From NCBI GenBank assembly GCA_030737835.1, contig CM060849.1, positions 20,134,074 to 20,198,073 of the forward strand: DNA of 64,000 nt, written 5' to 3'. Under the pieces are notes generated by a model. That model had not been told where the DNA came from and did no database searches. It saw nothing but the letters and a program-made list of their open reading frames with translations. Below are positions 144 through 59,017 of this stretch, piece by piece (positions within the stretch are counted from its first letter, which is position 1; each line of letters starts with the position of its first letter). Source of the DNA: Acorus gramineus (lineage: Eukaryota > Streptophyta > Magnoliopsida > Acorales > Acoraceae). The position numbers and the translations under genes were made by a program.

Positions 144-3100
144 GTTAGGCACATGTTTGAAGAAATTGATTACATCTCAGAGGCACAAAATGCTGAGCGA
201 TTTGCTTCTCTATATGCATCTCTTTCAGGTAATTCTTCTTGCACTTGTTATAGTCTATTCATTTCTGGAAGTTATTATTCAGCTTTTTATATTTCCAAAC
301 CCTTTTCCTGAATTTCACCTACAGATATTAATCGTAACAGTTATGTGATGGCACCAGATTGTATATTTGTACACAATTTTAGTCTGCAATAGCAGAAATG
401 TTTGGAGAATTTTTATGCTCGTCATGCACTGTATCTGTTGTTTATCACATATTTGAAAGTATCATGATTATCTTTTTGATTAATAGATAGTGCTCAGAAT
501 ACTCATGGGAGGAAACAAGTCATTAAGGTTCCAAAGATATATTGGAACTTCACCGGTCAGACTGTGCTTACAATGGAATGGATAGAAGGGATTAAACTCA
601 CTGATCTCGATCGCATGAGTAAAGCGTGCTTAAATCAAAAGGAATTGATTGATCAGGTATCTGGGCACCACAAATCCCATCTGCCCTTGCATTATTTAAT
701 CATTTTTTTATGCCCTCAGCTCTCCCATATTGGGTGCCCTAGAAAAAATTAGCATAATTATCTTAATAACAAATTTGGTTAGGAGTAAGGACATTCTTTC
801 CTATGCATGCAAATGAACAGCTAATGGGCAGGTTCCAAGTACAAGAAACCTGAATATATTCTCACATCCCATCTGCATGCACTAAACATTTCATGAAATA
901 TGTGGACTGGTCTCTTGTGAGCACCTCTCATTTCCTGCATTCTGAATGCCTTTCTCTTGGTACATCCAATTTTTTTTTCAGAAGATATTCTACTTTTTAA
1001 ATCTGGATTTTTTTCAAAAAAATGTGATTGCTTACATCAATTGTAAAAGCAGTTTAGCCCTTTAATGTTTTCAGTTCAAGGAGCATTTGCTGGTAAGTTT
1101 GTGTGATTGTGCATGGATATTTAAGAGATCAAATTATTGTTTTCTGGTAACTGATTAGAATTGTTTGACTTGTGATAATTGTAGAGCATTGATTATTCAT
1201 CCTCATAGAAAGGGAATTTCAGATTTAGTTGTTTGTTTGTTCAGTTTTTTATGTTGCACCAGCCTGAGATCTTTTGTCCTTTGCAATTTTTCCATCAGGG
1301 ACTTTATTGTTCCTTGCGGCAATTGCTTGAAGAGGGCTTTTTCCATGCTGACCCGCATCCTGGAAATCTCGTTGCTACTGATGATGGATCTCTCGCTTAT
1401 TTTGATTTTGGTATGATGGGTGAAATTCCTCGCCACTATCGTGTGGGGCTAATCCAAGTGGTTAGTTTACATTGTAATTGAGCTATGCAAAATATATTGA
1501 AATTTCCATCATTTTAAGACAGAGAACTTATGGATGTGCTGGAACTGTTCATGCAAGGTCTTTTTTTTTCTGTTCTTATTTTTTTATCCGTTTTGAAATG
1601 GTTATCGATGCATGCATGCATACATCATGTGACATTATAAGTTTTTTGACTGGAAAATTGCATTGATGGCTTCAAATTTGCTACCTTTAAATATTTTAAC
1701 TTGTCTCTTAACAAGAAAATATACATCCTATAGATGAACTGTTAAGTAGTAACTGCAAATTATATTGGCACCCTGGCAGATACAGATGCAGTTTGTGAGC
1801 AAGGTGAAATACTGCTCAGGTCTATATAATCAAAGGAAGGTGATAAAAGCTTATGCTGTAACCACTGTTTTTTTTTTCTTTCGAAAAGGTAGACAAATGT
1901 CTCCACGATTTACTGATCTTAATCGAAGTTACATAGTCAGAAATTGAGGTGAGGGAAGATAATAAAAACGGGAAAACGCAAGAGAAAGGAAGCTAAAACA
2001 TCAATTTATTTGAGGTAGACGAGACCTCTAGCCAAGCAAAACAAGTGGTGTCCAGTCCCCTCCAACCTGCTTACAATCTTATAGAAAGACAGCCATTATC
2101 AACCTGAACACCCTTCGCCCCTGCTAGGTGCCGACCCCAGCTTGCGAGGAAGCCCTTCCACGTATTCCACAGGTTCTCCAAATAAAAGCTAGAACCGTTA
2201 AAGAGCATATTGCTTCGACAATGCCAGATTGGCCATACCGCCACAGGATTCACCATCCATCGGACATTGGCTTATATGCTTCTGTCGTCTGCTGTGACCG
2301 CTGTTAAAAAGAGCTTTTGGAAAAATCATGAAAAGTGTCTAGTCACATTTCCTTGACCTGTGAGTTTTTGCTGGTTTTAATCTTTTTAGCATTTTTGTTG
2401 ATGGGTTTGTAAACCATTTGATCCATGCTGGACTGCTGGTTCACACTGTAAATAAATTTGTTTTTGCCCCCTTTACTGTATTTAATTTCACTAGCACATT
2501 GTGTAAATATCAAGCTTTATCTCATCTAATGATGTCAGCGAAAGAGTGCACCCAAAAATGTGGAAATAATACCACATGAGATGTAAATTTTACTGACTTA
2601 TGGTAGACCTGGGTCATTGTCAACCTGATGTCAACTTTCCCTAAAGCGTAACCAAAACATCTCTGGTTGATTTGTAGGAGGATGAGTACCTTGCAGTTAG
2701 ATGACAGCCACAAATGAAGAATTAGCTTTATATAATTAATAAGAGAAAAGGATTTAGGAAACTGGGATATGAACCAGAAACTTAATTTTGGTTGGTGAAA
2801 CCAAAATGTATAATTGTATTCTTTTTGTTCAAGATGATTAATATTGTGGCGATTATTTTAGCTGCTGAGCCAGTTAGATAGCACAACCATGCCTACCATT
2901 TCAAACGTTTAAAATAAAAAATATTAACAAAGTGTATGTACTTCATTACTTGCTGGTGTATCATATTCATCATGTGCTCTTCAGTTACTGTGGTATGTAT
3001 TTATGATTCTGATATCGTGGAAGTGGTTTTTGCACATATCATGGAATTGAACAATTGATTTTTTTTTTTTAAGTTTAATTTGAGATTCTGGTTGTAAAGT

Positions 3101-6100
3101 TGTTCAATGGAGTACTGGGTTTCTCATTTTGCTATATATGTCTCTGTACCTTATCCGCATTGGCATTTCTCATGTAGTTTTCTTCAAAGTCTGCATAGTA
3201 TAAAGGATGACTAATTCCTTGCACATTTCAGCTTGTGCACTTCGTCAATCGTGACTCCTTGGGATTAGCAAATGACTTCCTTTCACTGGGATTTCTTCCC
3301 GATACAACAGATATACAGTCAGTGGCAGATGCTTTGCAAGCTTCATTTAGTGATGGAACCAGGCAATCTCAAGACTTCCAGGTCCTCATCATAAGCCTTT
3401 GAAGTTTGTTATGTAGAATATTTTGCCCGTCACCAACCCTCTGAAAATAGTGAAATATCCTACTAATGTTTAACTAGAAGTATGGAATAATACATGTCAC
3501 GAAACAGTTCTCTTCACATGTAATCATATAGTATTGAACATCAATAGTTGAAATGAGTCATTTCATATATTCAGTCATATTTTGGCAGATTGTCAGAGGA
3601 CAGCCCTTGTAAATTATTGCAAATCTTAGTTGGCATTCAAAAATATTGACCCTCTTTCAACAATATAATTTGTTATTCCAATTTTAAAATGTGTAAGCAA
3701 TTGCTATAAAAAACTGAGATAATAAAGATCATTTTAGTTATTTTGAGTGCTATTAAATATAATCGGGGCACGAGTATGGGCATGAGAGACATCCAGGAGT
3801 GAAGGGAAATACAAACCCAGGAACGAGTGGAAATAAGCTACTCTATGGACTGAAGTAAGAAGGGATGAATTTACATATCCTGGTAGAGGAAGTGAATCCA
3901 ATGGACAAAGTCAGAAGAGGGAAACATACTGTAGAGTGCTTTAGAAAGGACCGATTGGTGACTACTTAATTTTTCTTTGTTTTGCTTCTTTCTCAGAACT
4001 ATGTAGTTTTCGTGTAATGAGTGGACCCAGTTCTATGATTCTATCTGATTCATATAGAATGAACAACTTGCTTAGCGAGGCAATCCGAGTGAGTCTTTAG
4101 CTACCAAACTTTTATGGAAATTGCTTTCTTTGGGATCCTTGCTGCTGATTGGTGCACACATTCTTTCTTTAAACTATAGTCGTTATTTATTAGTCAAAAA
4201 TAAAAAATGTTAATGAGTTTTACTTATTGCAATTTTGTCTTTTTTCTTAAATTTTGGGCCTTACTAAAAAGAAAATGTTGTCAGTTTATTGCCTTGCCTA
4301 CGTACATCTCAGGAAGTGCCTCAATGCTGTTCATTGCTATATATTTTTCTTCACCGAAAGTTAACGGAACTTTCTTCTTAGTTAACGTTACTTCATTGTA
4401 ATTTGCAGATAACTTTGTTGTTTAAAATTAGTAGTACTTAAAAATTGTTCTGACTTCTCTTGGGTTTGATTTCAGGGCATAATGGACCAGTTATATGATG
4501 TTATGTACGAGTTCAATTTCTCCCTCCCCCCAGACTATGCACTTGTGATTAGAGCTTTGGGATCTTTAGAAGGGACGGCAAAAGCATTGGATCCTGATTT
4601 TAAGGTTGTCGAGAGTGCATATCCTTTTGTCATCGGGAGGCTTCTTGCAGACCCCAGTCCTGATATGAGGAAAATATTAAGGGAACTTCTTATACATAAT
4701 AATGGCTCCATCCGATGGAATCGGTTTGAGCGCCTGGTGAGCAAATTTTCTCAGGTTTCCTAATTTTTCAAGAACTGGTTCTTATAGATGGTGTGATCAA
4801 AGTTGGGATGATGGTATGTTGCATACTGCATGTTGTGCCTTTATTAAGTTTACTAACATCTAGGCTGACTCTCTCTCTTTTTTTCAATTTTTTTTTTATA
4901 TCTTTTTATCTTATTTCTCTGTCATTTAGAAAAAGGTGAAGGTATAGATCTGCATTTATCAGGCACCATACTAGTAGTTTATTCTTCTCATGGTATGTTA
5001 CCATTATATTACTACTGGATAATGTGGCATCCACCTATGATTTAATTTTAAATATAGACATAATGCTTGAACATGTCATGTAATAAGATTCTCCTTTCCG
5101 AGGTGGTAAACTGAAATTCTAGAATTGGACCATATTCTTCTGTAGCAACACTCTGGATATCAGCAATTTTGCTAAAGAACATCCATAACTGCTTGTTGTG
5201 TTGTTATGTGCCAGGTAGAGTAGCAGTAATGCAGTGTGCTTGTTTTCCTGCATGAAAAAGTCCAGGGAAATGTATATAGCAGTCCGATTTCTGCCCGAGA
5301 GGACATACATCTTTAGTTAATCAATTTATTAAATTAAAAAAAATTAAGACCTTAGTCACCCTTGAGTGCCTTTTTTCTTTGCTCTGCTTTTGTAGGATAT
5401 TCAGTAAGTATCGGCAACACATAATACACTGTGTTTCAATAGAAAATGAAATGAGTTTGAAAGGAAGTTCATTTGCAACCTGATTTATTTTATTGGATGG
5501 CATATACTAGCCTTGAAAGTGTCAATTAGCAATTATTTTTAGTACAATGAAAAGAGAACTGTCATTTCATTTATGTATTTGATTTCCTCTGTAAAACCAG
5601 AAGTATTTTATTGGTTTAATATCCTGCAATTGTTGAACCTCCGATGGCCTAAACTCCTGTCTCCCTTGTTTCCTATGCAACCTGAAGAGGTAGCCAGCAA
5701 CCCAAACCTGATTGTTGTGTTTAATGTAATTCAATCCCATTTCAGGTAGCAGCAATCTCAGAACAAGCATCTGAGTCTGCCAATGAACTTCCTACTGAGT
5801 CGGCTCCAAGTTCTTCAAATCTCCATGGATGGAAATCATTCGACATGCGAGCTGTTGTTGCTGCTACAGAAGACCTATTCCATTTCATTCTGTCCGAAAA
5901 GGGCCGGAGAGTGCGTATCTTCCTCTCCCAGGACATCATTAAAGCCGCAGATGCTTTTCTACAAGAGGAAGCATTTCCTTGCATCTTCGATGATAGGCTT
6001 GATGAGAAACAAAGATCTGATGTCAAGGTTTGTTTTGTTGCTTGGACTGCCTTATATTTGAAATTGTGATATTACTCGGTCACGATGATTACTGGGAGGA

Positions 6101-6365
6101 TTGGTCTGTGATTGTTTTGCAGAGAGATGCGATGATCGCAAGGTTGATCAATGATTTTCGATCCCTCCGGAAGGCTGTAGGTTTGGCACCGGAGGTATGG
6201 ACTGCAATGCTGATTCGCATGTCATTGAAGTCTGAGGTCCATAAATTTTTGCTTGATATTGTGTCGACCTTGGCAAAGCATTCCAGTCATAGATTGCTGG
6301 AAAACTTCTGGCTTTGTTTGTCAAGGTTCCTTCACAATTTAGAGGCACAAGACAGTACAAAATGA
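144..6365 (+). CDS. ABC1-family atypical protein kinase (ABC1K/ADCK type), 3' part of gene
   Basis: The 5' end lies outside the window. Visible exons, all in phase: 144-228, 487-656, 1299-1460, 3232-3381, 4476-4736, 5746-6027, 6123-6365, giving about 450 residues and a TGA stop at 6363. Seen: a FEEIDY segment in the first exon, the catalytic loop FHADPHPGN and the metal-binding FDFG ([14 protein letters not shown]) in the third. These are signatures of the UbiB/ABC1 family. Plant members mostly sit in plastoglobules or mitochondria and affect prenylquinone metabolism. The C-terminal region after the kinase core (exons 5-7, with [22 protein letters not shown]) resembles a plastid-type plant subclade as I remember it; the exact paralogue is unassigned. 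A second donor for exon 5 at 4754 would add six residues; I prefer 4736 because it joins RL to VAAISEQ. The intron 1461-3231 carries a LINE tail. Confidence 0.9.
1870..2289 (-). mobile_element. 5'-truncated LINE tail in an ABC1K intron
   Basis: On the minus strand, 2256-2071 encodes a segment with [10 protein letters not shown] and [13 protein letters not shown], which looks like the region downstream of the reverse transcriptase in plant L1-type LINEs. The minus-strand 3' end runs into a T-run on the plus strand (about 1867-1880), that is, a poly(A) tail. Both sides carry a 16-bp direct repeat, tgctgtaaccactgtt at 1854-1869 and tgctgtgaccgctgtt at 2290-2305, 14 of 16 identical, as expected for an old target-site duplication. 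About 420 bp remain. It is antisense to the host gene. Confidence 0.75.
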
Positions 6366-15727: not shown

Positions 15728-18700
15728 ATGGGATTCTTGAATAACGTCCTCTCGACGAGCGGAACGCACGTTGAGGACTCTCCCGTCAGCGGCGGCGGGC
15801 TTAGGTGATCTTCTTGACCGTTCATTCTCTTTCTCGTTCTTCATGTGGATTGATGGAGTTTATATTTGTTCGGATTTTGACGTGGTTTTGCGTGATTATG
15901 CGAGTCTTGGTTTTGGTGTGTGTGGAAGTTTTAAATCTGCACAGATCAAGGCGCGATTCTTGAAATCAAGAACAAATTGGTACCAGCTTATATGAATTTG
16001 TATCAATTTGTACGAATTGGTACAAATTCGTGCAAATTTGTGCAAATCGGTATGAGCTGTTTTGAATTTGACTTCTAAATTTGTTCCGATTCCTACAAAT
16101 TCGTGCCAATTGGTATTAGTTCTTAGAATTCATACCAATTGGGATTGTTTCCATTTCATATGATTCGTACTAAGTTGTACAAAATTGTACCAATTAGTCA
16201 CAAATAGGTATATAATATGTTAGATTTCTTCATTAATTTAACAAAGAATTTGCGATTCTTGAAGACTTTTTGCATAATTTGGTATTGGCGCAATGTTAAG
16301 TTATAGAATTGGGACATGTCCTACCTTTACCAGGCAATTGGGTGTTTTGGAACGGTTTATAATTTGGTTTCTTTTGAATAATTCATATTTAAAGAGAAGG
16401 TTATATACTGATGTTTGACAAATTTGTAGAGAGGTTGAAAAGTAGTGTGAGATCTTCTTGGTTATGTATTGCCTTCTGTTTTATGCCAAACAGCCAAAAT
16501 GGAAAGTTCAGCTATGGATATGCCAGTTCACCGGGGAAAAGGTCTTCAATGGAAGACTTCTATGAAACAAGAATCGACGGTGTTGATGGAGAAATTGTTG
16601 GCTTATTTGGAGTGTTTGATGGTGAGGATCCGTGATTTTTAAATGTCTTTCCTACAAATTGCCAACTGGTTTTACAAGGCTTATCCTTTATACTTTTGAT
16701 CAATTTGTTGTGAGAAATTCAGGACATGGGGGTGCACGAGCGGCTGAGTATGTTAAGCAAAACCTCTTCAGTAATCTGATCAGGCATCCAAAATTCATTG
16801 CAGATACGAAATCAGCTATAGGTGCATTCTTTTTTCCGAGGCCTTTAGATGTGATTGCATCTTTTGTTACGGTCCTTGGCCTAATCCTTTTACTGGAGAC
16901 GTATTGATATCTTTCCAATCCTGCAGCTGATGCCTACAGCCAGACAGACTCAGAGTTCTTGAAGTCAGAGAATAATCAGAACAGGGATGCTGGCTCAACC
17001 GCTTCCACTGCTGTTCTTGTTGGTGATCGTTTGTTAGTTGCAAACGTTGGTGATTCCAGGGCTGTTATCTGCAGGGATGGAAAAGGCAGGCGATTTTGTC
17101 TCATCAGTCATGTTGATATTCTTCGCAGCTTTAACAGCCCATGAGTGGTTCCTGGATATTTGAATGTTTTCTTTGATTAGAAACATTCTCAAGCTTTCAT
17201 CAATTCCAAATTCTTATTTGGATGAGCATTTTATTAAATCATACATGCACAAATGTATTCGTCAATGGCATTAAGTGGATAAGTTTTTACCATGTGATGC
17301 TTGGGAAAGCCTTAGTTATTTTTGTTTGTGAGATCAGCAATGCAATTGTTTCTTTGACCTGTAAGAAGGGTTCTTTTTTTAATTGTCATTGCTGATGCTT
17401 GATATAGAGATCAACTTGTGATCTATGCATAGCACATGTGAAAACAGGCTAGTGATGCTTGATAAGATTCTAAATGCTGCATATCATCCCGTTCTATCTG
17501 GATTCCTTCATTTCTAAAAACCTGATATGGAATTCTTCTTTTTATATCTTATTAAGAAACTCAGTGTCGCATGTATCGTTAATTTGTGCTTGTTAATGTA
17601 TATTCTTTATGCCTTTATTTTGTTGATGTACTGTGAACTAAAACCAGTGGAACATTTTTCTTAGAGAGGTCGCCGAGAAATATTTACTGTGTTAATGTAT
17701 GTTTCCATGGACAAGATCCCTTACAATTATTGGTTACCAACAATATTGTTAATATTAAGGCATACAGCTTTCTATAAACTTCTTTTGCTGCACAATATAT
17801 GGGAGTACTTGAGCTTCTTTTTGTTGATGTTCTGTGAACTAAAGCCAATGGAACATTTTTCGTAGAAAGGTCACTGAGAAATATTTACTTTGTTAATGTA
17901 TGTTTCATTAACAAGATCCCTTATAATTTTATTTGTCAAAAAAGATCCCTTATAATTTTATTTGTCAAAAAAGATCCCTTATAATTATTGGTTACCAACA
18001 ATATTAAGGCATACAGCTTTCTATAAACTTCTTTTGCTGCACAATATATGGGAGTACTTGAGCTTCTTCTTATGGATGAGCATTGTGCATTATATCTGTC
18101 TTATTGGTTACTGCTGTCATGAACATGCCGTTAATGACCATATCACAATTTTGTGCAGCTATTGCTGTTTCACGAGATCATAAGCCTGACCAGACGGATG
18201 AGAGACAACGGATAGAAGACGCGGGTGGATTTGTTATGTGGGCTGGTAAAAAGCAGACGACCTTTCTCTGGCAGTCTGCTCTGCCTAGTAGTTTTTCTTC
18301 CCCTAGCAGTTTACAGCAGTTATGGTATTTATTGCTTATCAAGATTTTATTGCAGGCACCTGGCGAGTTGGAGGTGTTCTTGCGGTCTCTCGTGCATTTG
18401 GAGATCGGCTATTGAAGCAGTATGTTGTTGCAGATCCAGAAATTCAGGTCTGAATTCTCCACATTGATCTAATTTCTGAGTGTTTTTTTTTTTTTTCAAT
18501 GGGCAGAGTGGGTATCAAAACTTAAATAAAGCAACAACATTATTGGAAATTATTAGCATATTCTCTTAAGACTGGGAAATTTGGCATGTTGTTTTTAACT
18601 TCTCTGATTGAGCAGTGCAAGCTTTCTGTAAATTCATTTATTGTGGATTATCAAGAGAATGCCTCACCTACTTAAGAACGCCAGTGTGCATCTGAGAGAG

Positions 18701-19216
18701 GAGGGATTATTTATATGTTGCAGAGGATTTGGAATAATATTCTCTTCATGTCTTGGTCTTAAGTTTGATTTGCCTTTGTGTATATGTATCTGACATTATA
18801 TCCATAAGATCAAATGTAGAGGGGTTTCTAGGTCCACATTTTGTAGAGAGAAACCTTTTAAGTTCCTTATAATTTTCATATGCTAATTTGATCGTGCAGG
18901 AAGAGGTGATCGACAGCTCTCTCGAGTTCCTCATCCTTGCGAGTGACGGTCTTTGGGACGTCGTTACAAATGAGGTTTTTCATCATTAAATTGCATGTCA
19001 TGCACATTATTTCTGGTCCATTTTAGTCTAGTTCATTATTCAATCTTTTGTTCATCGTTTCAGGAGGCTGTGACCATGATCAAAACAATTGAGGAGCCAG
19101 AACAGGCAGCCAAGAGACTGATGCAGGAAGCCTACCAAAGAGGCAGCGCTGATAACATAACTTGCATCGTTGTCCGTTTCATGGCAGGGGCCACCGTCCA
19201 GCAATCGCAAACTTAG
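15728..19216 (+). CDS. Protein phosphatase 2C (PPM family), WIN2/PIA1-like
   Basis: Exons 15728-15804, 16494-16621, 16723-16821, 16927-17085, 18159-18245, 18356-18447, 18900-18974, 19064-19216 give 289 aa. The start is ATG with [12 protein letters not shown]; the stop is TAG at 19214. Seen: [14 protein letters not shown], the metal-binding [64 protein letters not shown] and [13 protein letters not shown], that is, all core PP2C motifs and the Asp ligands. It is a Mn/Mg-dependent Ser/Thr phosphatase. The sequence closely matches, from memory, Arabidopsis At4g31750 (WIN2, a partner of a Pseudomonas effector) and PIA1. Intron 4 starts with GC (17086) if the family sequence is kept (GKAIAVSRD). 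A GT donor 12 nt downstream at 17098 would insert four residues in frame. A polyadenylation-like aataaa lies near 19478. Confidence 0.93.
17622..18072 (+). repeat. Tandem duplication within PP2C intron 4
   Basis: Two adjacent copies, about 17622-17820 and 17821-18072, share tgttgatgt(a/t)ctgtgaacta, gagaaatatttact and the block tataaacttcttttgctgca. The second copy contains a ~27-bp unit, agatcccttataattttatt plus tgtcaaaa, repeated in a row near 17920-17990. Confidence 0.8.
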
Positions 19217-20870: not shown

Positions 20871-21301
20871 TAAAGTGGCAGATATGACTATAGGGTTCCA
20901 TCAAATACACAGTGTAGATTACCCTTCCATTATTCATGATTGTCGGTGTTTGAAATACGGGGTTCGAATCGAAGACACCATCATAGACGTCCAATCCAGA
21001 AAACAAAAACGGAAAGAAAAAAAAGATGTGCCTTCTGACAGCAAGTACCCTCTACACGCGGACCTTCTATAATCAGTCCAAAACCAAATCCAGGGACGTT
21101 TTCATCGATTTGTTTGAAGCCCGTCTCACCTCCGGTCGTCTCCGATTCTCCACCGGATCTCTCGCCGCCTCCGCCGTCTCCTTCAATCTAAGCCGTCCGT
21201 ACACATCTGTACGGTCGAGACTCATTCTTTCTCCATCACGGTCTCTCAAAACTGATCGGACTGCGTTGTTGTCGCAGGTGGAGGAGTTCTACAGGCGTCC
21301 G
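20871..21301 (+). promoter_or_regulatory. Upstream region and leader of the glutaredoxin gene
   Basis: From 21026 to the proposed start at 21302 the glutaredoxin frame stays open, with no stop, and would encode an Arg/Ser-rich stretch. It may be 5' UTR or an alternative N-terminal extension. No TATA box is clear. Confidence 0.4.
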
Positions 21302-24300
21302 ATGGTGATGGCGATGAGACGCGGCGGAGTCGCTCTGGCTCTTCTGGTGGCGGTGTCTCTGTACGGAAGCAGATCTGTTAGGGCATCCTCGTCCGACGAG
21401 GCTTTCGTGAGGAAGACCGTCTCTTCTCACGATATCGTCATCTTCTCTAAGTCATATTGCCCGTAACTCTCCTCTCTCTCGATCTCTCTAATGGCAGCGG
21501 TTTTGTGAATGCGGGGTTTTTTTTTGCGTTTGTTTTGAATTGAATCTGACGTTAATTTCTTGGATTTGGCATCTCTTATGATGTTTACATTAGTTTTTGT
21601 TTATTGAATTGTGGAGATCGGTAATTGGAGGTGTGAGTGAACTGTATTTCTTGAATTTGAGGTTCTGATAAGCTTTAGATTTGTTTTTTGACCTCTGACT
21701 GTGATTTTTTAATATTCGATTATATTTCTTGAATTTGAGGTTCTGATAAGCTTTAGATTTGTTTTTTAACCTCTGACTGATTTTTTAATATTCGATTATA
21801 TTGTTGGATTCTGATATTATTTTGCAAGACTGTAGTGGTTATGAGGAATCTGTATGATGAAAGGGTTACTTAGGTGTGAACCATTGGTTATCAGGATTGC
21901 CACAATTCGATGCATTTGTATTTCTATGTATTGTGTCTCTATGAGTCTTATTCAAAATGTCATTTCATTCAAATCCTCTTAAATCTTGCCCTTGTTATAC
22001 TTTAGACTTTAGTCGTTATGTGTCCATTGTTTACGTTATTACTGTATTTGTGAAACATGTAAAGGTGATGTTGTTTGGTTCTCTATTACCATGTCCCCCA
22101 TTTTAGTTTTATTGGCAATACTCATTCTGAAGAAATTAGCTTTTCCAGTTATATGAGATATCTTCTTCATCATTCTCATTTCAGGAGCAGCAGATATATC
22201 TATGCTTCTTCTAGCTGCTTAGCATTCTTCTTGCAACTGAACTAATCTTGTATATTCCTCATTGTTTTTCCTTTAAAATAGCTTATAACACAATGGTAGT
22301 ACAGAAATACAGCATACTAGAGGCCTCTATCCACTTATCCCACCTTTTTTTTCTCTCATGGAGACATCCATTGACTTTCATCCTTCATATTTCATGAAAC
22401 CATTTTTGTTGTATAATTCATTTGACTTTGGCTAAATGCTCTTCCAAGATCTATCTCATGTTGACTATATTCTGTTTGCCTCATCATGTTTTGGTAAATA
22501 AGCCTAACTTTAAAGTGCTTTGAAGTCTTAGTTGAACTTTGAATCTCTACCCCATAAATCCATCTCCTTAAACAGATGCCATCGTGCATTCCAGTCCAAC
22601 TAACTTGCATCATAGGGTCTTCCATTCTTATCAGTGGTCAAGTTGCCAAAAACAAGTGCAAAAGAGTAAACTTCTGATCCTTTATGGGGACCCTGAACAA
22701 TGCCGAATATGAATGTATTTTTACTTGTTCCTTCTCCTCCGTACATGTGTTTGATGATGTCAACCTACACTGCATCAATTTTCAGTTTACTGCTAAGTTC
22801 TTTCTGAAGCTTACTATATACTATGTGAAGAGGCTTACTCTGTACAAACTTCTGCATTTCAATTTATTGAATGGCAAAGGCCTATAGGCCTTCAAAGGTT
22901 GACCTTTACAAAGGCTAAATTGTTTCTCTTATATTTTTGTTGTGTCTCTGTTATGGTTTCCACCTCTACTTTCAAGTCATTATTTCATCTCTTGTAAAAT
23001 GGGATATCATTTTTCTTTGACTTGGAGAGGAGACTTTATGCCCCCTGCTTTTTTTTTTTTTTTTTTGAGTTTTGCCTCTGCTAATAACATCATATGCGGT
23101 GAGCTCCCACCTTTTGTTAAGTAAAACCCGTTGAACTATCGTAGGAAGACAATCATTAAGTTGAGTTTGCCTAAGCAGTAAATTTGTATCTGAAAAAAAT
23201 GAACCACGTGTGAGCTGCAAGACTGATCAGCAATTACTTTTCTAATTCAACTTTTCTGGTACATAATTACCATGTAGTGTGTATTTTAGATATATTACTT
23301 CTTACAAGGTAAAATGCTTCATGGTGACATTATTGATTGGAAACAAATCAAACAATCAATTTAGATTGATACTGTATCACATAATGGATATGTATCTAAT
23401 AGAGATAGTGTTTTATCTTTCAGTTTGAGCTATCTCTTACATTTCATTGATGACATTTAATTTCATCATTTTTCATAGGTAATGGAAAGGTTATTAATTG
23501 CCGCATGATAAGTCACTACGATGATTATTCCATGTGCTATTTTATTTTAGTAAATGCAAGAACAAGATCAACATCCTTAATGATATTTGACTTTATTTAA
23601 AAAACAAGCAATATCTATACTGATGGAAATTCTGTTATTTAAATATTCTGATGATAAAGATGAGCTAGTTAGTGTGCCTCCTTTTTTTTCATTATACATT
23701 GTTTTTTAAAAGAGGTCTTGCTGACATGCAGATACTGCAAAAGGGCAAAGGCTGTTTTTGCAGAGTTGAACCAGGTTCCTTATGTTGTTGAATTGGACCA
23801 AAGAGGTTTGTTCATTGAAACTCTATTTTCATGACATTTCAATGATGTTGTGAACTGATGAAATTATTTTGAGATGAGTGTTGTCTTTTTTGTTCTCTAT
23901 AGATTGCAGATGAAATGATGTTGTTCATCATCATATCATTGTTTTTCCATGCTGATCCTTCAAACTAGCTCCATGTAACTTAACATATTATAACTCTTGA
24001 AAATAAAGCTTCCATGCATGTCATATGATTGTAATATCCTAAAGAATTTGTGCTAGTTTTCGAACTTAAAATGTTGAACTATTATTGAAACATACACATA
24101 TGGCATGTGCAGCAGTTTGAATTGGGTGTCATGATTTCCATGGGTCATCTTTACAAGATCTTACAGTCTGGTCAAAGTGTCACCTTGTAATGCAATTTCA
24201 ATGTCAACTGCTATTTGATGGTTTAAATTACTTGTGATGGAACAGCAACATTTACATAACTGATATTCTAGGGAAAAAAAAATTTAGCTGGACTGCAAAT

Positions 24301-24610
24301 ACCCTACTCTTACATATTGGTCTGTTCTTTTATGTTTTTGCAGAAGATGGGAGTGATATTCAGGATGCTCTGAGCGATATGGTCGGGAGGCGCACGGTGC
24401 CCCAAGTTTTCATCAAAGGGAAGCACCTAGGTGGATCTGATGGTAATTGACTGACACTAACACGTTGTCTTTGATCTAATTTTAGGGAACATGCGCTTCA
24501 TGTCTAAATTTTTTTTCTTTCCATGATTGGATGCTACAGATACAGTGGAGGCTTACGAGAATGGTTCGCTGGCCAAACTTCTGGGCATCAATGTTGATGA
24601 TGATCTCTGA
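21302..24610 (+). CDS. GRXC4: CPYC-type glutaredoxin, GRXC3/C4-like, secretory-pathway form
   Basis: Exons 21302-21462, 23732-23805, 24344-24442, 24540-24610 give 134 aa with a TGA stop at 24608. Residues 8-29 form a hydrophobic N-terminal segment ([15 protein letters not shown]) consistent with a signal peptide or anchor. The active site SYCPYCK has cysteines at about 53 and 56, split by intron 1 inside the Pro codon. The glutathione-binding [14 protein letters not shown] and the [11 protein letters not shown] tail follow. Length and sequence agree, from memory, with Arabidopsis GRXC4 (135 aa). It is a glutathione-dependent disulfide oxidoreductase. I chose 21302 because family members begin close before the hydrophobic stretch; ATGs at 21308 and 21314 are also possible. 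A polyadenylation-like aataaa lies near 24801. Confidence 0.92.
21643..21802 (+). repeat. ~72-bp tandem duplication in glutaredoxin intron 1
   Basis: Two nearly identical adjacent copies each contain tttcttgaatttgaggttct, gataagctttagatttgttt and attcgattatatt. They differ by a two-base indel (gactgtgatt versus gactgatt) and one substitution, so the duplication is young. Confidence 0.9.
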
Positions 24611-25095: not shown

Positions 25096-25456
25096 GTTTA
25101 TGCAATTTTGGAAAATGGATGGATGATACGTTGAGAGTAGGATACACAATTAAGCAAAAGTTAAAAACACAGCAGGGGCTTTTTCATGTTTATCAGTATT
25201 TTCTTTATCGAGTGAACAGTGTGAAATATCGGTCTTTTTAGGTGATATTGTGGTTTAAAACTAGATACAGTGCTTAAAACCACTTATATGAGTATTTTTT
25301 ACGTCTTAAATAATTTTGTTCAGGTATTTTTTTTCCCTAAAAAATCCTTGTGAAGAATATATATATATATAGTATTTATCTTATAAAATCCAATTTTAAT
25401 TGATTTCGAGTACCTGTTCATGAAAATTAGTTCAGCCGCTCTTGTTTTCTTCAGCC
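24611..25456. other. Spacer between the glutaredoxin and JmjC/Cupin_4 genes
   Basis: The glutaredoxin 3' UTR is followed by AT-rich sequence with an (AT)n run at about 25060-25096. A tatatatatata stretch near 25357-25370, about 90 bp before the next ATG, could serve as a TATA element. No other gene is seen. Confidence 0.5.
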
Positions 25457-28400
25457 ATGGAAGGTCACCAAACGAAGAGGAGGAAGAAGAAGACAATCGA
25501 TTCGCCTCCCTTTGATGTTGACGTCGACTCTCAAAACCCTCGGTCGATCAAGACCCTTCTCAAAACCCATCTCGCCCTCATCAAATCCACACAAACAGCC
25601 ATCGAAACCCTTCCTGAAGGCCTCCTGTCTCGGCTTCCATTCCTCCTCAGATCCGAGTATGTCTCCCTCTCCGATCTCCTCCTCTCCTCTTCTTTTTGAT
25701 TCTCGTCATACCGATCTTCGGTTGCTTTGATTCTTCAGGTTCCCTAAAATAGCTGCTTTAAGCGCAGAAATCGTCGGTTCTTTGGCTCTCTCGTCGTTCG
25801 AGGCCAATACGATGTTAGCTTCGGATAAAGGGATCGTCGAGGGCTTGGTTGAAGCTTTGAAGAGTCGGGAGAGGAGAGTGGTTAAGGCGGGGTGTGATGC
25901 CGTGCTGGATTTGTCGACGGCTTCGATTGGGAGGGAAAGATTGAGAGATGCTTCAGCTGTGGAGGCCTTGTTGTGAGTGTTTACCGCTGTCGCATTATTT
26001 CTCTATATGTTTTTTTTGTTCATGGTCTGTTCATATATTCATTGTGCCCAGAAGAGTATCTCGTGATGGATTGATGGATGTGTTGTATGAGCCTATTTTT
26101 TGAACAAATGTGCAGCATGTTTAATGGGTTTTTAACATTCTTTTATTTTTTGTAATCAAGATTAATTGGTTTTTTGTGATTTTGTTGTTCTACTTCGCTC
26201 AGTCACGAGTTGGACATCAGCCAAGAACATACTTTGTTGTTCTGTTGTTACTTTATGAAAATTCTGTAAATGGCATGGTTTGGCTTTTATAGAATTGATG
26301 ACATTGGTTATATCACACAGTTCTCTTCAGAGTTGTGACAATAGGAGGGACAGCAGAAAGGTCTATGGAGTGAAATGAGAATTGGATATGATTGATAAAG
26401 ACTCCTGACTCTCCTGACAGAAGGCGCTCTCTCTAATGCTCAATCTAACATATGCCTAAAGAAATATTGTGAAAGATGACACTAGAGGAAATTTGTTTGT
26501 GCAGGATATATTTGAACTTCAGTTCTCTTTTTGAAAGTGAGTTGTTGAAATATAATTTCTAGTTCAGCACTTCTGGGGATCTGCTACTAATCATTAAATA
26601 ACACTTGTCATTGTAAATTCCCTGTCTGCTGTTTTTCGTAAATATAACTGTTGTACATGTGCTTATGAACTGACTTTTGATAGATCTATATATTGTCAGA
26701 ACACAACATCTCCCATGAGAAGCAATGCTGTTGATAGCACGGAAAAGGGGATCAGTAACTCCAGAATAGGATTTGTCAAAGATGATGTTCTCTCAAATGT
26801 GGTTCTTCATACGGCTGTTATCCTCATTAACACCTGTGATGAAGTGTTCCTGAGAAAGATCCCAGGAGAATTGTCTCTAAATTTTTTGCATTTATTGAAG
26901 GAGTCATGGGGAAGAATGCATAGTTGGCCTACACCATGGAAATGCCACGAGAAACAAAGTTCCACATTTAGCAACATGAGAGCAAATGATTTGGCTGAGA
27001 CTATTTTCAGGCTTTCAATGAATCAAGTTCCCCATGCAATATGTGCTGTTGATGTTGCGAGAAGAAGCATATTTGGCAGCACAGAATTGGAGTTTGAAAA
27101 TTTTATTATAAACCACTGGGAGGAATCACCCATTCTGTTGACCAAGGTTTCAAAGAATTTGGAGGGAGACAATATCATCTTCAGTCTCCTTGCTGATGTC
27201 TTTAAGTCTAGTACCATTGGTACCCTACTTAATTCTATCTTGAGAGGACTGGTATCCTGTCCGCCAATCAACTCAGATGAGATGGATATTCTAAATTTCT
27301 TGAAAAAGGTGAGGGATGAATTAGGTTCTCCAATGCTGTATGAGCAGGACATCCGAATCTTGAAGACAGTGAGATCGACTTCCATGTCCACTCATGGGCC
27401 TTTGAAGACAGAGGTGCATTATCCAATGAAATCTATGAATTCCCGCAACATGGAAAGGCCAGAGTTTACTGGTATAGACCTTGTCCGTCAATGTAAAAAA
27501 GCATATCATGAAGGTTATACAGTTGCCCTTCGTGGAGTAGAGTTCCGATGGGAGGAAGTTGCCATGATCACGGATAGACTAGCGATGCTCTTTGGTCAGC
27601 CATCTGTGGGTGCCAATTTATATCTGACACCAGCTAGATCACAAGGTCTGGTCCGGCATTTTGATGATCATTGCGTGTTCATTTGCCAACTTATCGGGCA
27701 AAAGCAATGGACTGTTTTACCTCGAGGTGCTGGCTTCTTACCACGATTGTATGAACCAACTTGTAATCTGCATTGCTCAGAGAGTGATGGCAATATAGCA
27801 GAAGGCAAGCATTTTTTACTTGGTGAAGGTGATATTTTATATATTCCTCGTGGTTATCCCCATGAGGCTCATACACTCAACAACGTGGATAAATCCTGTA
27901 TCGACGAGACTACTGAGTTGTCTCTACATTTGACACTTGGAATTGAAGTTGAACCACCTTTTGAGTAAGTGCGTCTTAGATTAATCTGCAGTTGTTCTTG
28001 TAAAAAGAAGAAAAAGAAAAAAAAACTTGCATCTGATTATGAGAAATGTTAAGGTGGCACTTCTCTTCATAAAATGTCAACTGGGTTATTTAACTGCTTG
28101 TTATATGCTTAGCTGCACCTATGAACAACTGTAATAGTTATATATTTGTATGCAATCTGATATCTAGTTTGCTCTTAGGTGCACACACGTATAATGTGGT
28201 TCTTTATGTTACATTTATGAAGGATATTTGTTTTTAAAATTGTTTTTAACTTATTTGTTTTGATTAATCAAAATCTATCAACATCAATGCAGCCATTTAC
28301 CCGACCATTTGGATTCAATTTTATGAATTCTACTGCACTATGAATTCATCATTTCTCACTTGAATCTTAGTCTAAATGCATCGAAGCATGCATTAATGTG

Positions 28401-29220
28401 CTATATGATATTTCATTGTTAACTAAAAAATGTGTTACCTGTCTATTATTTGAGACCAAGATGTAGATTTTCATGTCGTGCCATTGAAACAATGTTTCAG
28501 TGGTCTACATTTCCACAATGTGCACTTGTCTGCTTGTCTAAGTTTTTAATATTAAAGCTGTTCAATCCTTTAGTATTCTCATTATTACGGGTGGTCCACA
28601 GGTGGGAAGGCTTTGCTCACATAGCTCTGCATAGCTGGAACCTAACGCAGAGACGAGTAACTTTTAATCATCTTGATTCTGCATCACAGATTCTCAGTGA
28701 GGATATTGTGTATCTCTTGCATGTTGCAATAAGATTGATTGGCAATCGCAATCCTGTATTCAGGAAAGCTTGTTTGGTTGCTGCATCATCCTTGCCATCT
28801 CAAAGTGAAGGGGACAATCACATCCATGCTCATGCTCTTAACCAAAGGACAATTTTTGCACACATAATTAATCAAATAGATGCCCACTCCAGCTTCTTGG
28901 AAGCATTTGGCACTGTAAAAGTTGCTGTTTACGAGAAGAATGATGATTCCTTGCAGTGGATGGGATGGCTCCATCACCTTCCCCAAGAAGAAGAGAGAAT
29001 CGACTTCAATGATCCTTTGAGATTTTTTGAGGATCTTGTCCTATCATATGAGGGACACATCAATGAAGCTTGCAGTGCATTCATGCATGTTAAGTCTAGT
29101 TTCTGTAGAGACGTAAGATTTGAGGATACTCGTTCGAGCTTTGAGAGGCTGCTGGAGAAGTACAGGAAGACGAGAAAACAATTCATGAAAGGTATGCTCT
29201 CCCTACATTGTACTAAGTAG
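25457..29220 (+). CDS. Cupin_4/JmjC-type 2-oxoglutarate oxygenase (ribosomal oxygenase NO66/MINA-like)
   Basis: Firm exons: 25457-25656, 25739-25972, a large one ending at 27964, and 28602-29191, the last probably reading on to TAG at 29218. A small exon near 26505-26540 (IYLNFSSLFESE) is likely. The large exon then starts near 26720; this junction is unsettled. Total about 780 aa. N-terminal residues resemble helical ARM-like repeats (ALSAEIVGSLALSSFEAN). The catalytic jelly roll shows RHFDDHCVFICQLIGQKQW, giving the HxD iron ligands, and GDILYIPRGYPHEAHT, giving the distal His, followed by SLHLTLGIE and a winged-helix-like C-terminal part. Human relatives hydroxylate histidines of ribosomal proteins; plant function is not established. 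If the donor at 29192 is used, an alternative last exon could start at about 29953. Confidence 0.85.
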
Positions 29221-29917: not shown

Positions 29918-30067
29918 GCTACAAAAGAACATGGTTTTGCTTCAGACCATTTCTGCTTACATCAAATACTGAATGATTTTGAAGAATACCAGATAGCATA
30001 GCTGAGTAATCGAGAGAGAAATAATTACATGTAGAACTTCTTATCCTAATGTTGGTAATCAGATGCT

Positions 30068-30460
30068 CTATGGTTTGGGATGCTTGGGGAGGATATTTGG
30101 GTGTGTTTTTACTCCATGATAATCGATGTGGTAGATGACCTCCTCTTCATCTCTGCTTCCATGATCTCCTTCTGCACTCACTACTTCAGTGTCAGCTTCC
30201 ACCAATTCTGCAACCTGGATAAAAAAATCATGTCATCTTCTATTCATTTGTTGTATACAATAGAAGATTCACATTTTTGTTTAGGAAAATCCATATCAGT
30301 ATCAGACCTGAGCCTTGACTTCTTCCGTCATAGGTTTCATTGTCATCATCAGGATCCTCCTGCCTCGTATCTCTAATGATGCATCACCTCCAGAGATAGA
30401 TAATACACACAAAAACATTGTCAAAAAGCAGAGAAGCAAACAGAGGGGTTTCATTTCCAT
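30068..30460 (-). CDS. Small secreted peptide precursor, RGF/GLV (CLEL)-like
   Basis: Two minus-strand exons, 30460-30308 and 30214-30068, are joined by a 93-bp GT-AG intron in phase 0 and give 99 aa. Residues 1-25 form a clear signal peptide (MEMKPLCLLLCFLTMFLCVL). A variable, acidic middle follows (EGDHGSRDEEE). The conserved-looking C-terminus, about residues 81-99, reads IDYHGVKTHPNILPKHPKP. Asp-Tyr, five residues, then His-Pro is the spacing of sulfated RGF1-type root growth factors, and an acidic Asp-Tyr is the usual tyrosylprotein sulfotransferase signal. The tail PKHPKP differs from the usual Pro-x-x-Asn end, so a related or separate family (PSY- or CIF-like) is possible. A TATA-like tatatataaa lies at 30520-30511, about 50 bp before the ATG. 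Confidence 0.65.
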
Positions 30461-30510: not shown

Positions 30511-30520
30511 TTTATATATA
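30511..30520 (-). promoter_or_regulatory. TATA-like box for the peptide gene
   Basis: The minus strand reads tatatataaa about 51-60 bp before the ATG at 30460. The position fits a short 5' leader of some 20-30 bp. Confidence 0.5.
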
Positions 30521-47030: not shown

Positions 47031-48597
47031 CCTAATTTCCGCTCTTCTTTGGTCTCGACTGACCTTAATCAAACTCGTCGGCATTAGGTTACTGGGCTCG
47101 TAGACCGTTGTGGGACTGCGCTTGTTTGACGACTTCACACCTTCATTAGAGCTCAAAACAGTCTCACATCTACACGACACATGTCAACCTGTGATAACTC
47201 GTTATTTTTTCTCCTAAGATGTCAAACTTGGTATATGTATAATTTCATATTGTGGCTAGTTTACGATGAGTCGACGACTTTCTATATATAAATCTATCTA
47301 ACTTTACATGAAAAAAATATTGTCTTCCCATTTTTTAGTCTCATTTTTAGCTTTCAGGTAACATGTATTTAAAAAGTATATATGTAATAATGAATAAACA
47401 GTATATACTCTCAAATAAAAGGACAGAGCAAAAAATAAAGCTAAAAAAAGGGCTGGGTATATCAAAGTCATTATAGCATGTATAATAGTATATTTAAGTA
47501 TACGTAACAGTAAGTTTTCAAATATGGAAGATTGTATTTATGTGAACATGCTTAAGACCTAATGAAAAGGTGGGGTTTTGTGTGTGGGTCCCACTAACCT
47601 TGATTGCTAACAAAACGGTTGCTTGCGGTTTGGGGTTCGTGAGAGATTGGTGGACCTTTTTTGGCGGAATGGGGACCATCTTGTCAACGGTTGGGGGGTG
47701 TTACATTCTCAATGGTAATCATGTGACTTCCAATCACTCAATAATATCTATATCTTAATTTATTGTTGTTCTCCGTTTCATCGGTAACATGTAAGTTATG
47801 AACACGCAAAGCACAAACATTTAACGTGGTCATCAAAAACATGATCTTAATTAATATGGAAAGAATTTGTTTTGTTGACCGTTTTGAAACCATTAAAAAT
47901 AATAATAATAATCATAATAATAACATCCTTCGGTTCCTTTAGCTTGTCATCACCATACGTGATTATACTATATGCCTTGATTGATACCCAGTTTTAAATC
48001 ACAAACAAAAAATAAAAAATGGTTTGTTTGTTCTCTCCCATCATATAAGGTGTAGCATGTCACGGTGGGTGAACGGCCCATACGTGTGACATTGGTCCAA
48101 GTGAAGATATCATCATGCATGGATCAAATATTATATTTGATTAATCAAATATTAAAACCATCTAAACATGTAGTAGTACTGCACACAAGTGACCTAAAAA
48201 TTGGAAACCCTAGGAACCAAGAAAACCATTGTCCCTAGATGACGGAGCACCCAAAGTAATTGCCGGAACGGAAACCCTGTTTACGTGACTTTTTTGGTTA
48301 AATATATTAAAAGTCTTTTAGAGAAACCCCACCTCACAAAGACACTGAGAAAAATCTTTTCTTTCAATGGTCAAACATTTGTATTGGAACTGGGAGTTTC
48401 TGTTTCCACCCCTTAATCACTCTCTTACCTCAAATTCCAACGCACCCCCACCCCCCCTCTCTCTCTCTCTTCTCTCCCAAATTTATGATCAGAAACCCCC
48501 CCTTCACTCATCGCACTCTCTCTAATTACCATATATACTAATCTTCCAAACCATATCAACATCTCCTCCTCTTCTCTTGTTTGAGTGAAAAGAATCA
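47031..48597. other. Spacer and upstream region of the HD-Zip gene
   Basis: I see no gene here. Before the HD-Zip ATG there is a CT-rich leader (ctctctctctcttctctccc near 48458) and a TATA-like catatatac at about 48530, 65-70 bp upstream of the ATG. Confidence 0.45.
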
Positions 48598-49609
48598 ATG
48601 GAAGAAGAGACATGTTACACAGGTCTCGGACTTGGCTTGGGTTGCCGGGATTTCGGCCGAGAGCGAAAGCCGCCCGTGAAGCTCCATCTGTTGTTCCCGC
48701 ATGAGTCTGCGAAAGAAGAGATGAGAAGCGATGAAGATGAAGAGGTTGTGATGAAGGATAACAACAGTGCTGTTGGTGATGATCATGTCAACGACGACAT
48801 AGGGGTTGGTAATGCAAGGAAGAAATTGAGGCTCACCAAAGAACAGACGAGCCTTCTTGAGGAAAGTTTCAGGCAACACAACACTCTCACCCCGGTATGT
48901 ATGTCATATCTATATATCATCCCTACATGTGCATGTGAGAGAGAGACATAGAGAGAGCGCAATATATATATTGATTTTGTGTTGATGATTTTGCAGGCCC
49001 AGAAGCAAGAATTGGCGGAGCAGCTAAATCTACGCGCGCGACAAGTTGAAGTTTGGTTTCAGAATCGAAGAGCGAGGTGCGTATCTTGTTGTTATAATCA
49101 GATCGCTCTAACACCAGTTGTTGGTACCCGTACCCATAAATCATTATGATACTAATATCTTCAATGGGTTCTTTTTAAATCCACATAAAATATGAGGGGT
49201 GTTTGATTGAGTAAAACTGATTGATCTAACACTGACTAAATTCAATGAAGAAATTTAATTCATTGAACTTTTTTTTTTTTTTATTTTTAGGACCAAATTG
49301 AAGCAGACGGAGGTGGATTGTGAGTTCCTGAAGAAGTGTTGCGAGAGCCTGAGCGACGAGAACCGACGGCTGAAGAGAGAGCTACAGGAACTCCGATCGA
49401 TCAAGCCCGGCGCCGCCTCGCCTTTCTACATGAACCTCTCCAAGACGGCGGCCGTGACAACGATGACCGTGTGTCCGTCGTGCGAGAGGAACTCCGTCGG
49501 CAAAGATGGGAGGATCACCACCGGTGCCACCAACAACGGCGGCTTGGATTTCAAGCCCAATCTATACGGGACAACCGTCAAAGACTCTCCTTCAAATATG
49601 GCTTGTTGA
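48598..49609 (+). CDS. Homeodomain-leucine zipper transcription factor, class II
   Basis: Exons 48598-48894, 48997-49076, 49291-49609 give 231 aa with a TGA stop at 49607. The N-terminus has LGLGLG, an LxLxL EAR-type repression motif. The homeodomain, about residues 74-130, includes [18 protein letters not shown] and [17 protein letters not shown] (recognition helix). The leucine zipper, about 131-165, includes [20 protein letters not shown]. The class-II mark CPSCE follows at about residue 182. Such proteins bind CAAT(G/C)ATTG pseudopalindromes as dimers, mostly as repressors in shade and auxin responses. The second intron splits the homeodomain before RTKLK, a common position in the class. 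It is short compared with HAT1/HAT4-like members (about 270-300 aa), closer to ATHB17/18 or HAT22 groups. Confidence 0.93.
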
Positions 49610-55204: not shown

Positions 55205-58200
55205 TCACCTCAACCTTTGATTCCATGCTGGTTTTTGTCTCATGACAAGGCTGGCGTATATGAGCTCGTTCCATGCATCTGGGACCCCAGGAAGACACCA
55301 GTGGCTGCAGTCTTGCCGTCTTAATGACACCTTTTGACCATATGCGAGTTTCTTCCTGTAAATCGATGGGTGACCATCCTTGCGGAAGTTGGTCAATTTC
55401 GTGACGTTCAAAAGGATCACAGGGACTCTCATTTCGTGGATAACGTCTTCAACAATCCTCATTTTCATAGGGTAGCTATCAAGGAAGGCTCCACTTAAGA
55501 TCGGCTCTGTCTCTCCACTACACGTTCCACCAGAGTCCCAGTCTCCTCCTCTGGTGAATATGACAATATCTTGATCAGATTTTTTTCTTGGTACAAGATC
55601 CCTATTGGGTTATAAAGTCTCTAACATACAGTGAGTATACTCGGAAGACTGAGCCATCATGCACCCAGATCTGACTGAGGAGCATAAGCCCACAAAACAC
55701 AGGGCTATACACAATTTTTGCAGTCTTGCAAAAATTGCAAGACTCAGAACCTGGGTCCCCCAAAGGGGGAGGTGTCCCATGAACCATTAGGCGATTGGTC
55801 CAAGGAACAACAATATCTTGATCAGATTGAATACCGAAACAAACATGATAAATAATTATGAAAATGATGCAGGAGTATTGCCTGAAATGAGCAGTTGAGT
55901 ATCCTCTGTAGAAGACCAGTTTCTTTGCAGGGTTTATGTTTTTGTTGATCCAGCTTCCCCAAGTACTCATGGCTCTCTTATATGCTTCAACAGCATCAAA
56001 TTTTGGATAGACAGTATCACCTTCCTGATAGTAGTCCTTCCTGCGATTGATTAGAGACATCATTGTACTGAAATGCTGCTGTGCTACACGATTAAAGTTC
56101 TGTTTGTTTTCCAAGTGTAAATTGCATGATAAATTGATAAGCAAGGGGTATCTATTATCAGGCCTTGTAATGTATAAAAGAAGGCTAAACTTACCCTTTA
56201 GATGTTTTTCCGTGAGTCCACCAGTGGCCGGTATTGAAAATCAGAATGTCAGCATGCTTCCATCGAGCAGCCGACTTGTCAATGCGATCTATCTGCAGAC
56301 TTGGCCTTGATTTTCCCTGTGCTGTAAGGTGGGTTCCTTCCCTAACGAGGAAATGCGAGCGACAGAACTCTACAGTGCAGTTAAAATCCTGTTTATTTAT
56401 AATGTCAGCAAAAAAACTTCAATTTATCAAGGTCATATCCAATGTTGAAGCAACCTTGAGCAATTGAAGTTAATTTCAGTATGTTCTTTGATGTCATGTA
56501 TGGATGTTGAAATTTTGACATTAGCTCCATGAAATTGTTTACCCGTACAAGAAATTTTGTTTTCAATCTATCATTATTCTTATTTTTTATCCAAAATTTA
56601 TTATATTTTGTGGAAAACAGCAAAGACAATGTGCTAAACAAGATGATGATGATCCTCACACTGGTCAGAGCACTGTAAAATGAAACTGCCCAAATGGTAA
56701 TTTAGTGCATAAACAAAATTGAATTTTCCTACCTGACAAAGAGAAACTTTCAAATGCCACTAGTATATTAACAAAACTGAAAAGAAAAAAAAAGCATACT
56801 GCAATGCAATTATATTTGTCCATCCTCAAATGGAAACAATTAGGATATCAATAACAAGTAGTTTCCAAACAAACTTTGGTATCACAGCATGATAAAAGTC
56901 AAATTTGCAACATCTGAGGTTTTAAATTCATTTTTTCATGATTATTTGATTTAGCATATGACATTTAACCTTGAAGTGGCATTATGAGGTAACTTAAGGA
57001 AACATGCCATTTTGTAAAATTTGGATTGAATTTCCACCGAACCAGAAGTCTCTGATCTAGACTAATCATGCAAGACCCCAACAATCCACATTGCATTCTA
57101 AATTTTACGTAAATAAAAATGATGATTGAAAGAATCAATAATTTACCGCAAATTGAAAGATAAAGTATCCTCGCCCTTTAGTTATTTTATAGCCTCGTGT
57201 CTCATACATCCGGCTCTTGTCAGGCAGCGCTTCTCGTAGAAGGCACAACATTGATTCAAATTGGTTGCGGTTCACAGAGTCCCCAACTAGCATCATCCTT
57301 TTACCTCTTAGCCTCTCCAAAAACTCTGTTGCGTTAAACCTACAAGCCATGTATGAGGAAAGAAAAAAAAAATCATGCACTTCTAATCATCATAATCAAC
57401 ACAAGATAATATCATATGTAATGAACTAGATGAAGAATCAGCTGTTCAAGGACATCCTGTGAAATAGTCAAGTTCTCAAACTTCATTACCAATTTACCAT
57501 GAATGAATTTCGGGATAGCGTTTAATTATTCTCACTTTTACTATCAATCTAACATTTTTGTATTCATGCGAGCTCTTGTCTGCATATAAATATTCCTTTT
57601 ATGTGTACCTAAATTTCTCTCTGAGAAAGAGGAAAAAAAGAAGAAAAAGAAGCAAACTTTTGTCACAAGTAAGTTAGATCAGGCTAGGCTCATGCTGTTT
57701 CTAACCACCAACACAGTGTTTCCAGATTCGACATGGAAAATAACTCAAATCAATAACTGATCACATATCTAATCAGCTTGTGGGTTGAACTCATGGTACA
57801 TCACAGCAAGGTCTGCAGTCTGCCACATCAATGATTAATTTGGCGCTTGCTTAGTGCAAAAAAGTGGGTTGTTATCAGTCACACACACTAAATGTGAAGA
57901 ATCAAGAAAGATTCTAAATGAGGGTTGATCCAATGACCCAAAAATTGACTAATTTTCTGACCCAATTTCATTTCGTACCGATCATAAGAGGACATGCCAT
58001 TCTATCAGTTAATACTGAGTGTTATCTTTTTTGGGATTGATCCACCTCAGATTCGATCACTGGGTAGGGGTCCAGATTTTGGCTATTAAAAAAAAATCTT
58101 CTTCTTTCTAAATTTAGATAGATAACAAACATGCTATGTTTCAAACTTTCAATCGCACCAACCTTCACACTTTCAGCATCATACATTATTTTTCAGCATC

Positions 58201-59017
58201 CATCAATGGGCCACAAATCCTCATGTCACATTCAATCTTTGCATTGCTGTCAATGAAAGATGAAATATAAATGAAGCATTTATGTCTTCAAGTGTTGCAG
58301 CATCAAAAAGACTACTAATGATTCAATTAATGAGTGGCATTCTTGGAATATAGGTCTCACGATTCAAAAACATCCAAACATTGCAAAAAAAAAATCAGCT
58401 TTTTTTTTTAAAAAAAAAGAAACAGTTACTCACCTGGGAAGATCACAGCCGTCCGGTTTCCATCTCCACTTCAGGTAACCCGAATCCGGCCGTCCGTTCT
58501 CCTGGCAAGTGAAGGCCTCGTCCACGTAAGGGCAAGATCCCGGCCTGTACAGCGGGTACTCTTCGTCCCTCGTCCATGTCCCTTGGAACAGATCACACTC
58601 ACCTCCAACTTGATCATCGTCTCTGTCATTGATGTTGTTGCCGTTCTCTTCTTCATTGACTATTTGAACATTCACCTTCTCATCGGACGGTTCAGTCTCT
58701 CCAGTGTCGTCGGGATCGACGGATCCGACATCGTCTTCATCTCCACCGTCCGAATCGGCGGGAGCCGGGGAGGTCGGCTGCGGCGTCGGAGGTGCAAATG
58801 AAGACTTGGAGAGAGAAGGGAAATCTAGAGCGAGGAGTGGTTGCGGGGGTTCTGATGAGGGGGAGATCGGGAGATTTGAAGTGGCATTGGAGCTGTAGAA
58901 GGAGAGGTTGGGCTTCAGAGAGCGCTTGTTGGAGGAGAAGAGGAGGAGGAAGAAGAGGAGGATGAGTGCAAAGGAGGAGAAGTATAAGGCGGAGCAACGG
59001 TTCAACTGCAGTGACAT
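55205..59017 (-). CDS. Trichome birefringence-like (TBL/DUF231) polysaccharide O-acetyltransferase
   Basis: Minus-strand exons 59017-58434, 57339-57147, 56388-56195, 56040-55882, 55550-55205 give 491 aa. The start [15 protein letters not shown] leads into a transmembrane helix (residues 12-28) of a type II Golgi protein. A long Pro/Ser then acidic stem follows. The TBL domain starts at [17 protein letters not shown]. The GDS motif is in [17 protein letters not shown]; the DxxH motif is in [15 protein letters not shown] near the C-terminus. Family members O-acetylate xylan, pectin or mannan. The sequence suits the TBR/TBL1-6-like group as remembered; the acceptor polymer is not deducible. Intron 4 starts with GC (CAG|GCAATA at 55881) and holds a SINE. 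All exon phases agree. Confidence 0.93.
55582..55809 (-). mobile_element. tRNA-derived SINE, copy 2, with perfect 19-bp target-site duplication
   Basis: Flanked by identical acaatatcttgatcagatt at 55563-55581 and 55810-55828. Read on the minus strand, the head has the A-box-like cgcctaatggttcatggg, ccccctttgggggaccc and a B-box-like ggttctgagtc. The tail is short poly(A) (T-run at 55582 on the plus strand). It sits inside intron 4 of the TBL gene in the sense of that gene. It shares the head with 12431-12624. Confidence 0.85.

Follow-up and report, generated by a model that had tools for sequence, protein, structure and literature searches.

Gene content of the region and structure of the candidate gene

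The window, i.e. the whole stretch of 64,000 nucleotides analysed here, appears to come from a plant nucleus; the contig to which it belongs measures 32.4 Mb, in an assembly of 398.6 Mb. Among the translations listed for it, we recognized by eye what we take to be an ABC1-like kinase gene (480-6362, plus strand), a PP2C phosphatase gene (16393-19213, plus), a CPYC-type glutaredoxin gene (20987-24447, plus), an NO66-like (JmjC/cupin) gene (25424-29220, plus), a gene for an HD-Zip class II factor (48589-49606, plus) and a trichome-birefringence-like (TBL-like) gene (57138-59068, minus).

Gene finders easily miss short spliced precursors. The original prediction had placed such a gene on the minus strand, with two exons joined across a 93-bp GT-AG intron to encode a protein of 99 aa, and our direct reading returned the same coordinates and description. 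Joining 30460-30308 to 30214-30068 gives a 99-aa frame. Exon 1 (30308-30460, minus strand) contributes 51 codons, with a signal-peptide-like start and the motif RRIL. Exon 2 (30068-30214, minus strand) contributes 48 codons followed by TAG, and comprises an acidic pro-region (residues 52-81) and the tail DYHGVKTHPNILPKHPKP (residues 82-99). The predicted intron (30215-30307, minus strand; 93 bp) is in phase 0 after residue 51, with the boundaries CAG/GTCTGA and TTTTTTTATCCAG/GTT. Its G+C content is 0.28, against 0.42 and 0.46 in the two exons. The acceptor is strong by appearance. The consensus of donor splice sites is MAG/GTRAGT; counted by eye against this consensus, the donor GTCTGA fits at 6 of the 9 positions and is weak after +2. 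Three models of the candidate gene satisfy the loose gene rule defined below, namely the 99-aa intron from either ATG and an alternative intron (donor 30387, acceptor 30208). As the latter retains the DY tail, with loss of RRIL, the splice choice is not unique.

A candidate TATA box, TATATATAAA (30511-30520, minus strand), matches the consensus and starts 60 bp before the ATG, a fitting distance. With six occurrences of this decamer across the window for 0.58 expected, it gives weak support when taken alone.

Just downstream of the candidate, between 29400 and 29910, 'ctaggcg/gcctaggcgg'-like words are repeated, probably as a short dispersed repeat. On the opposite strand, a stop-free frame of 105 codons (30059-30373, plus) is antisense to the candidate and spans its intron; by eye, no signal-peptide-like start was found in this frame.

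Features of the predicted precursor

The signal-peptide-like start extends from residue 1 to about residue 24-28. It was assessed with a home-made hydropathy measure and the -3,-1 rule, and this simple assessment agrees with a signal peptide, as had been predicted. The protein has three cysteines in all (7, 11 and 18), every one within the signal peptide. The motif RRIL occupies residues 34-37. Across residues 52-81 we counted 10 D/E for a single K/R, which bears out the acidic middle originally described. The C-terminus is DYHGVKTHPNILPKHPKP, 18 residues starting at Asp82. It has DY at residues 82-83, then five residues, then HP, and ends in PKHPKP, exactly as first noticed. The predicted mature peptide therefore corresponds to 18 codons, from Asp82 to Pro99 (30071-30124, minus strand), with an N-terminal end placed by analogy with other DY peptides. 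The elements generally asked of a tyrosine-sulfation site are present, i.e. an Asp-Tyr pair (D82-Y83), a precursor predicted to be secreted and an acidic context (10 of the 30 preceding residues). The evidence for the gene model of a DY-tailed secreted precursor is good; we infer the expression, processing and sulfation of this precursor.

Frequency of similar gene models and coding statistics

We used a loose rule to count comparable gene models: a signal-peptide-like start, a 70-400-bp GT-AG intron that includes a pyrimidine tract, and a product of 70-140 aa. Dinucleotide-preserving shuffles of the window (n = 60) contained on average 1.42 ATGs satisfying this rule, and the real window contains five, at four loci. 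The real DNA examined, the window together with twenty 10-kb stretches, amounts to 264 kb; 19 ATGs in it satisfy the rule, and two of these are the candidate's own (30460 and 30454). Loose models are thus not rare, as would be expected if the locus held no working gene but an open frame resembling a precursor by chance or after decay. In contrast, a loose-rule model combined with a DY..P tail was found in 0 of the 60 shuffles, and nowhere in the 264 kb outside the candidate locus, although both figures flatter the candidate because the tail rule was written after the gene had been seen.

Codon statistics gave P = 0.34 for exon 1 and P = 0.10 for its portion beyond the signal peptide, P = 0.19 for exon 2 and P = 0.026 for its portion before the DY. 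Synonymous codon choice alone gave P = 0.13. One off-frame of exon 1 outscores the coding frame (0.048 vs. 0.016), and the same comparison beyond the signal peptide gave 0.434 vs. 0.220. The codon evidence is weak and mildly favourable to the candidate. These statistics, the weak donor, the lack of a paralogue (see below) and the post hoc tail rule all speak for a chance or decayed frame. Against it, the frame, the intron, the TATA box, the acidic pro-region and the G+C contrast agree with each other, and we consider this explanation unlikely. In our judgement, the candidate is probably a real gene.

Search for copies and homologues

No second copy of the gene was found in its own 398.6-Mb genome at an E value of 0.001, nor of its last 27 residues at an E value of 10; as this search scores only first-look candidates, it may have overlooked remote relatives. 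As expected, no relative turned up in the prokaryote and viral collections. We also searched for a duplicated block using the neighbouring genes. The NO66-like gene matched itself alone, and the best other match of the TBL-like gene was 63% over residues 139-194, so that we found no sister block in which to look for a second copy.

In Pfam, the whole protein gave a weak row for DUF1798 (E = 0.2) and exon 2 a weak row for zf-C2H2_REST (E = 0.14), both far below the cut-off. Exon 2 had no match among PDB sequences at an E value of 10. In the main text of the open-licence papers searched, the tail strings were absent, and guessed variants of the tail returned one six-letter word in one unrelated mouse paper.

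Comparison with the RGF/GLV/CLEL family

The original prediction left the choice between an unusual RGF/GLV/CLEL member and a separate peptide family. The candidate shares with this family a signal peptide (by the simple rule used here), a C-terminal peptide starting with DY and an RRxL site as in CLEL6. Furthermore, the D1, Y2, H8 and P9 of RGF1 (DYSNPGHHPPRHN) and RGF10 (DYMQPTTHPPHHN), as given in Table 1 of PMC11534595, are the same in the candidate. However, RGF/GLV/CLEL tails have 13-16 residues and a PxHN end, and the tail of the candidate has 18 residues and no PxHN. The profile domain of 13-16 residues was not found in it: P10 and N13 are invariant in nine Arabidopsis RGF tails, and the candidate has N at position 10 and P at position 13.

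A profile was built from these nine tails of 13 residues (RGF4, GLV8, GLV9 and CLE18 omitted); the Arabidopsis tails of this and the PSY and CIF profiles were taken from Table 1 of PMC11534595. Without gaps, the candidate scored 0.6 (permutation P = 0.17), and the nine RGFs, each left out in turn, scored 9.4 to 27.8. Among the 21 members of the RGF, PSY and CIF sets treated in the same way, every score was at least 9.4, with P ≤ 0.006. A 3-residue gap raises the score of the candidate from 0.6 to 13.0, with P = 0.089 when the shuffles may gap too. We then enlarged the set to 16 RGF tails, adding to the nine CLE18, two further published tails and four tails of this genome (RGF4, GLV8 and GLV9 omitted). 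With this set, the candidate scored 6.7 (P = 0.037). When left out in turn, 15 of the 16 tails scored at least 9.9, and the outlier DYYGASVHEPRHH, a published grass RGF tail (PMC8708909, section 6), scored 2.1. As this accepted tail scores below the candidate, a remote tie with the RGF family may hold. When just the four same-genome tails were used, the score was 0.9 (P = 0.093), and the best single RGF member shares 3 of 11 positions with the candidate (P = 0.55).

The Pfam family PF21529 (GLV1-2), whose model covers the GLV1/2 kind, gave no row for the candidate at a max_evalue of 10, a setting at which most matches with an E value beyond about 0.1 are still removed by the HMMER filters. In the same genome, PF21529 has six matches. 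Four of them (L008 to L011) have a DY..P.HN tail, the four sequences being DYHPVKRKSPVHN, DYSPARRRSPIHN, DYMPVRGRMPIHN and DYLPVRNRTPTHN; the two others (L012 and L013) have no such tail. The tail of L008 begins with DYHPVK, near the DYHGVK of the candidate. When the four tail exons were scanned, all matched PF21529 and two passed the cut-off, but these loci had been found by PF21529 itself and the scan is therefore no independent control. By eye, L010 and L011 each have a signal-peptide exon and a separate DY-tailed exon, an arrangement that speaks for the candidate as a precursor of this kind; on C3, some 10 kb separates these two loci, which face opposite ways. At the two first junctions of RGF loci read by eye in this genome, the intron is in phase 1 and directly follows the signal-peptide part, in contrast to the phase 0 after residue 51 of the candidate.

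Overall, the shared positions, the effect of the gap, the score with 16 tails, the RRxL site and the likeness to L008 are what a very divergent RGF member would show. The ungapped and gapped permutations, the comparison with the same-genome tails, the low identity to the best member, the lack of a PF21529 match and the position of the intron argue against it, and we regard this explanation as improbable. The choice between a separate family and a very divergent RGF stands as first proposed, whereas the lack of a PF21529 match and the score of 0.6 (P = 0.17) give no support to RGF membership.

Comparison with the PSY, CIF/TWS1 and PSK peptides

According to Table 1 of PMC11534595, PSY1 (DYGDPSANPKHDPGVPPS) resembles the candidate in its 18 residues, its DY start and its prolines (positions 9, 13 and 16). 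The PSY motif given in PMC7913133 is DYXXXX[AP]NXXHXP; two of its fixed residues fail here, as the conserved N8 and H11 of PSY peptides are replaced by H8 and I11. With the PSY profile, the candidate scored -5.5 (permutation P = 0.19, or P = 0.26 with gaps; PSY tails cut at 13). Among 29 PSY genes of wheat, seven consist of two exons (PMC11641228), as does the candidate; three introns are present in the others and in 8 of 9 PSY genes of tobacco, against one in the candidate.

The CIF/TWS1 peptides resemble the candidate by their DY start and their C-terminal place. With the CIF profile, built from CIF1-3 and leaving out CIF4 and TWS1, its score was 0.8 (P = 0.12), so that the profile does not recognize it. 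PSK precursors are small and secreted, with a DY site. They carry YIYTQ, which the candidate lacks, and no PSK family was among its Pfam rows. PSK was rejected on these grounds, PSY by the failure of its motif and CIF by that of its profile (CIF1-3). It is highly improbable that the candidate is a sulfated peptide of the PSY or CIF type whose 18-residue tail has been altered. The length, the prolines and the two-exon PSY genes speak for this reading, and the motif and the three P values against it.

Proposed maturation and place among DY-type peptides

Taken together, we lean, by a small margin of confidence, towards a real plant gene, with no second copy found in its genome, whose small secreted product would be the precursor of a peptide signal of the DY type. 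The most likely nature of this signal is a DY-type, probably tyrosine-sulfated peptide, outside the known families or at their far edge.

Beyond the reading frame, the steps proposed for this gene are drawn from likeness to CLEL6 and CLEL9, as described in excerpts of PMC7162652. The signal peptide would direct the 99-aa chain into the ER. A subtilase of the SBT6.1/S1P type may then cut at RRIL (residues 34-37): CLEL6 needs the S1P site RRAL, and both sites have the RRxL shape (PMC7162652). In the Golgi, Tyr83 would be sulfated by TPST, the single enzyme that carries out this modification (PMC7162652), aided by Asp82 and the preceding acidic stretch. After the Golgi, an aspartate-dependent subtilase would release the N-terminal end near Asp82. 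According to the same source, TPST and SBT3.8 both need the Asp before the Tyr. In vitro, SBT3.8 cleaves CLEL6 after this Asp (PMC7162652), so the N-terminal end given here for the candidate peptide is approximate. The 18-residue DYHGVKTHPNILPKHPKP, perhaps with hydroxyproline, would finally be secreted and bind a leucine-rich-repeat receptor kinase.

Should this DY peptide belong to none of the known families, an orphan receptor kinase would gain a new candidate ligand; should it be a divergent RGF, it would widen the accepted shape of the RGF-family end. The sulfated-peptide families of Arabidopsis listed in PMC11534595 are PSK, PSY, RGF and CIF (with TWS1). The mode of action expected of the candidate would be that of the RGF, PSY and CIF precursors, but its tail assigns it to none of these families. 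We tentatively suggest, as a somewhat unlikely reading, a further class of DY-type sulfated hormone with its own receptor, beside PSK, PSY, RGF and CIF/TWS1, and with a tail of the form DYxGVxTHPxxxPKHPxP, in which the variable places are guessed.
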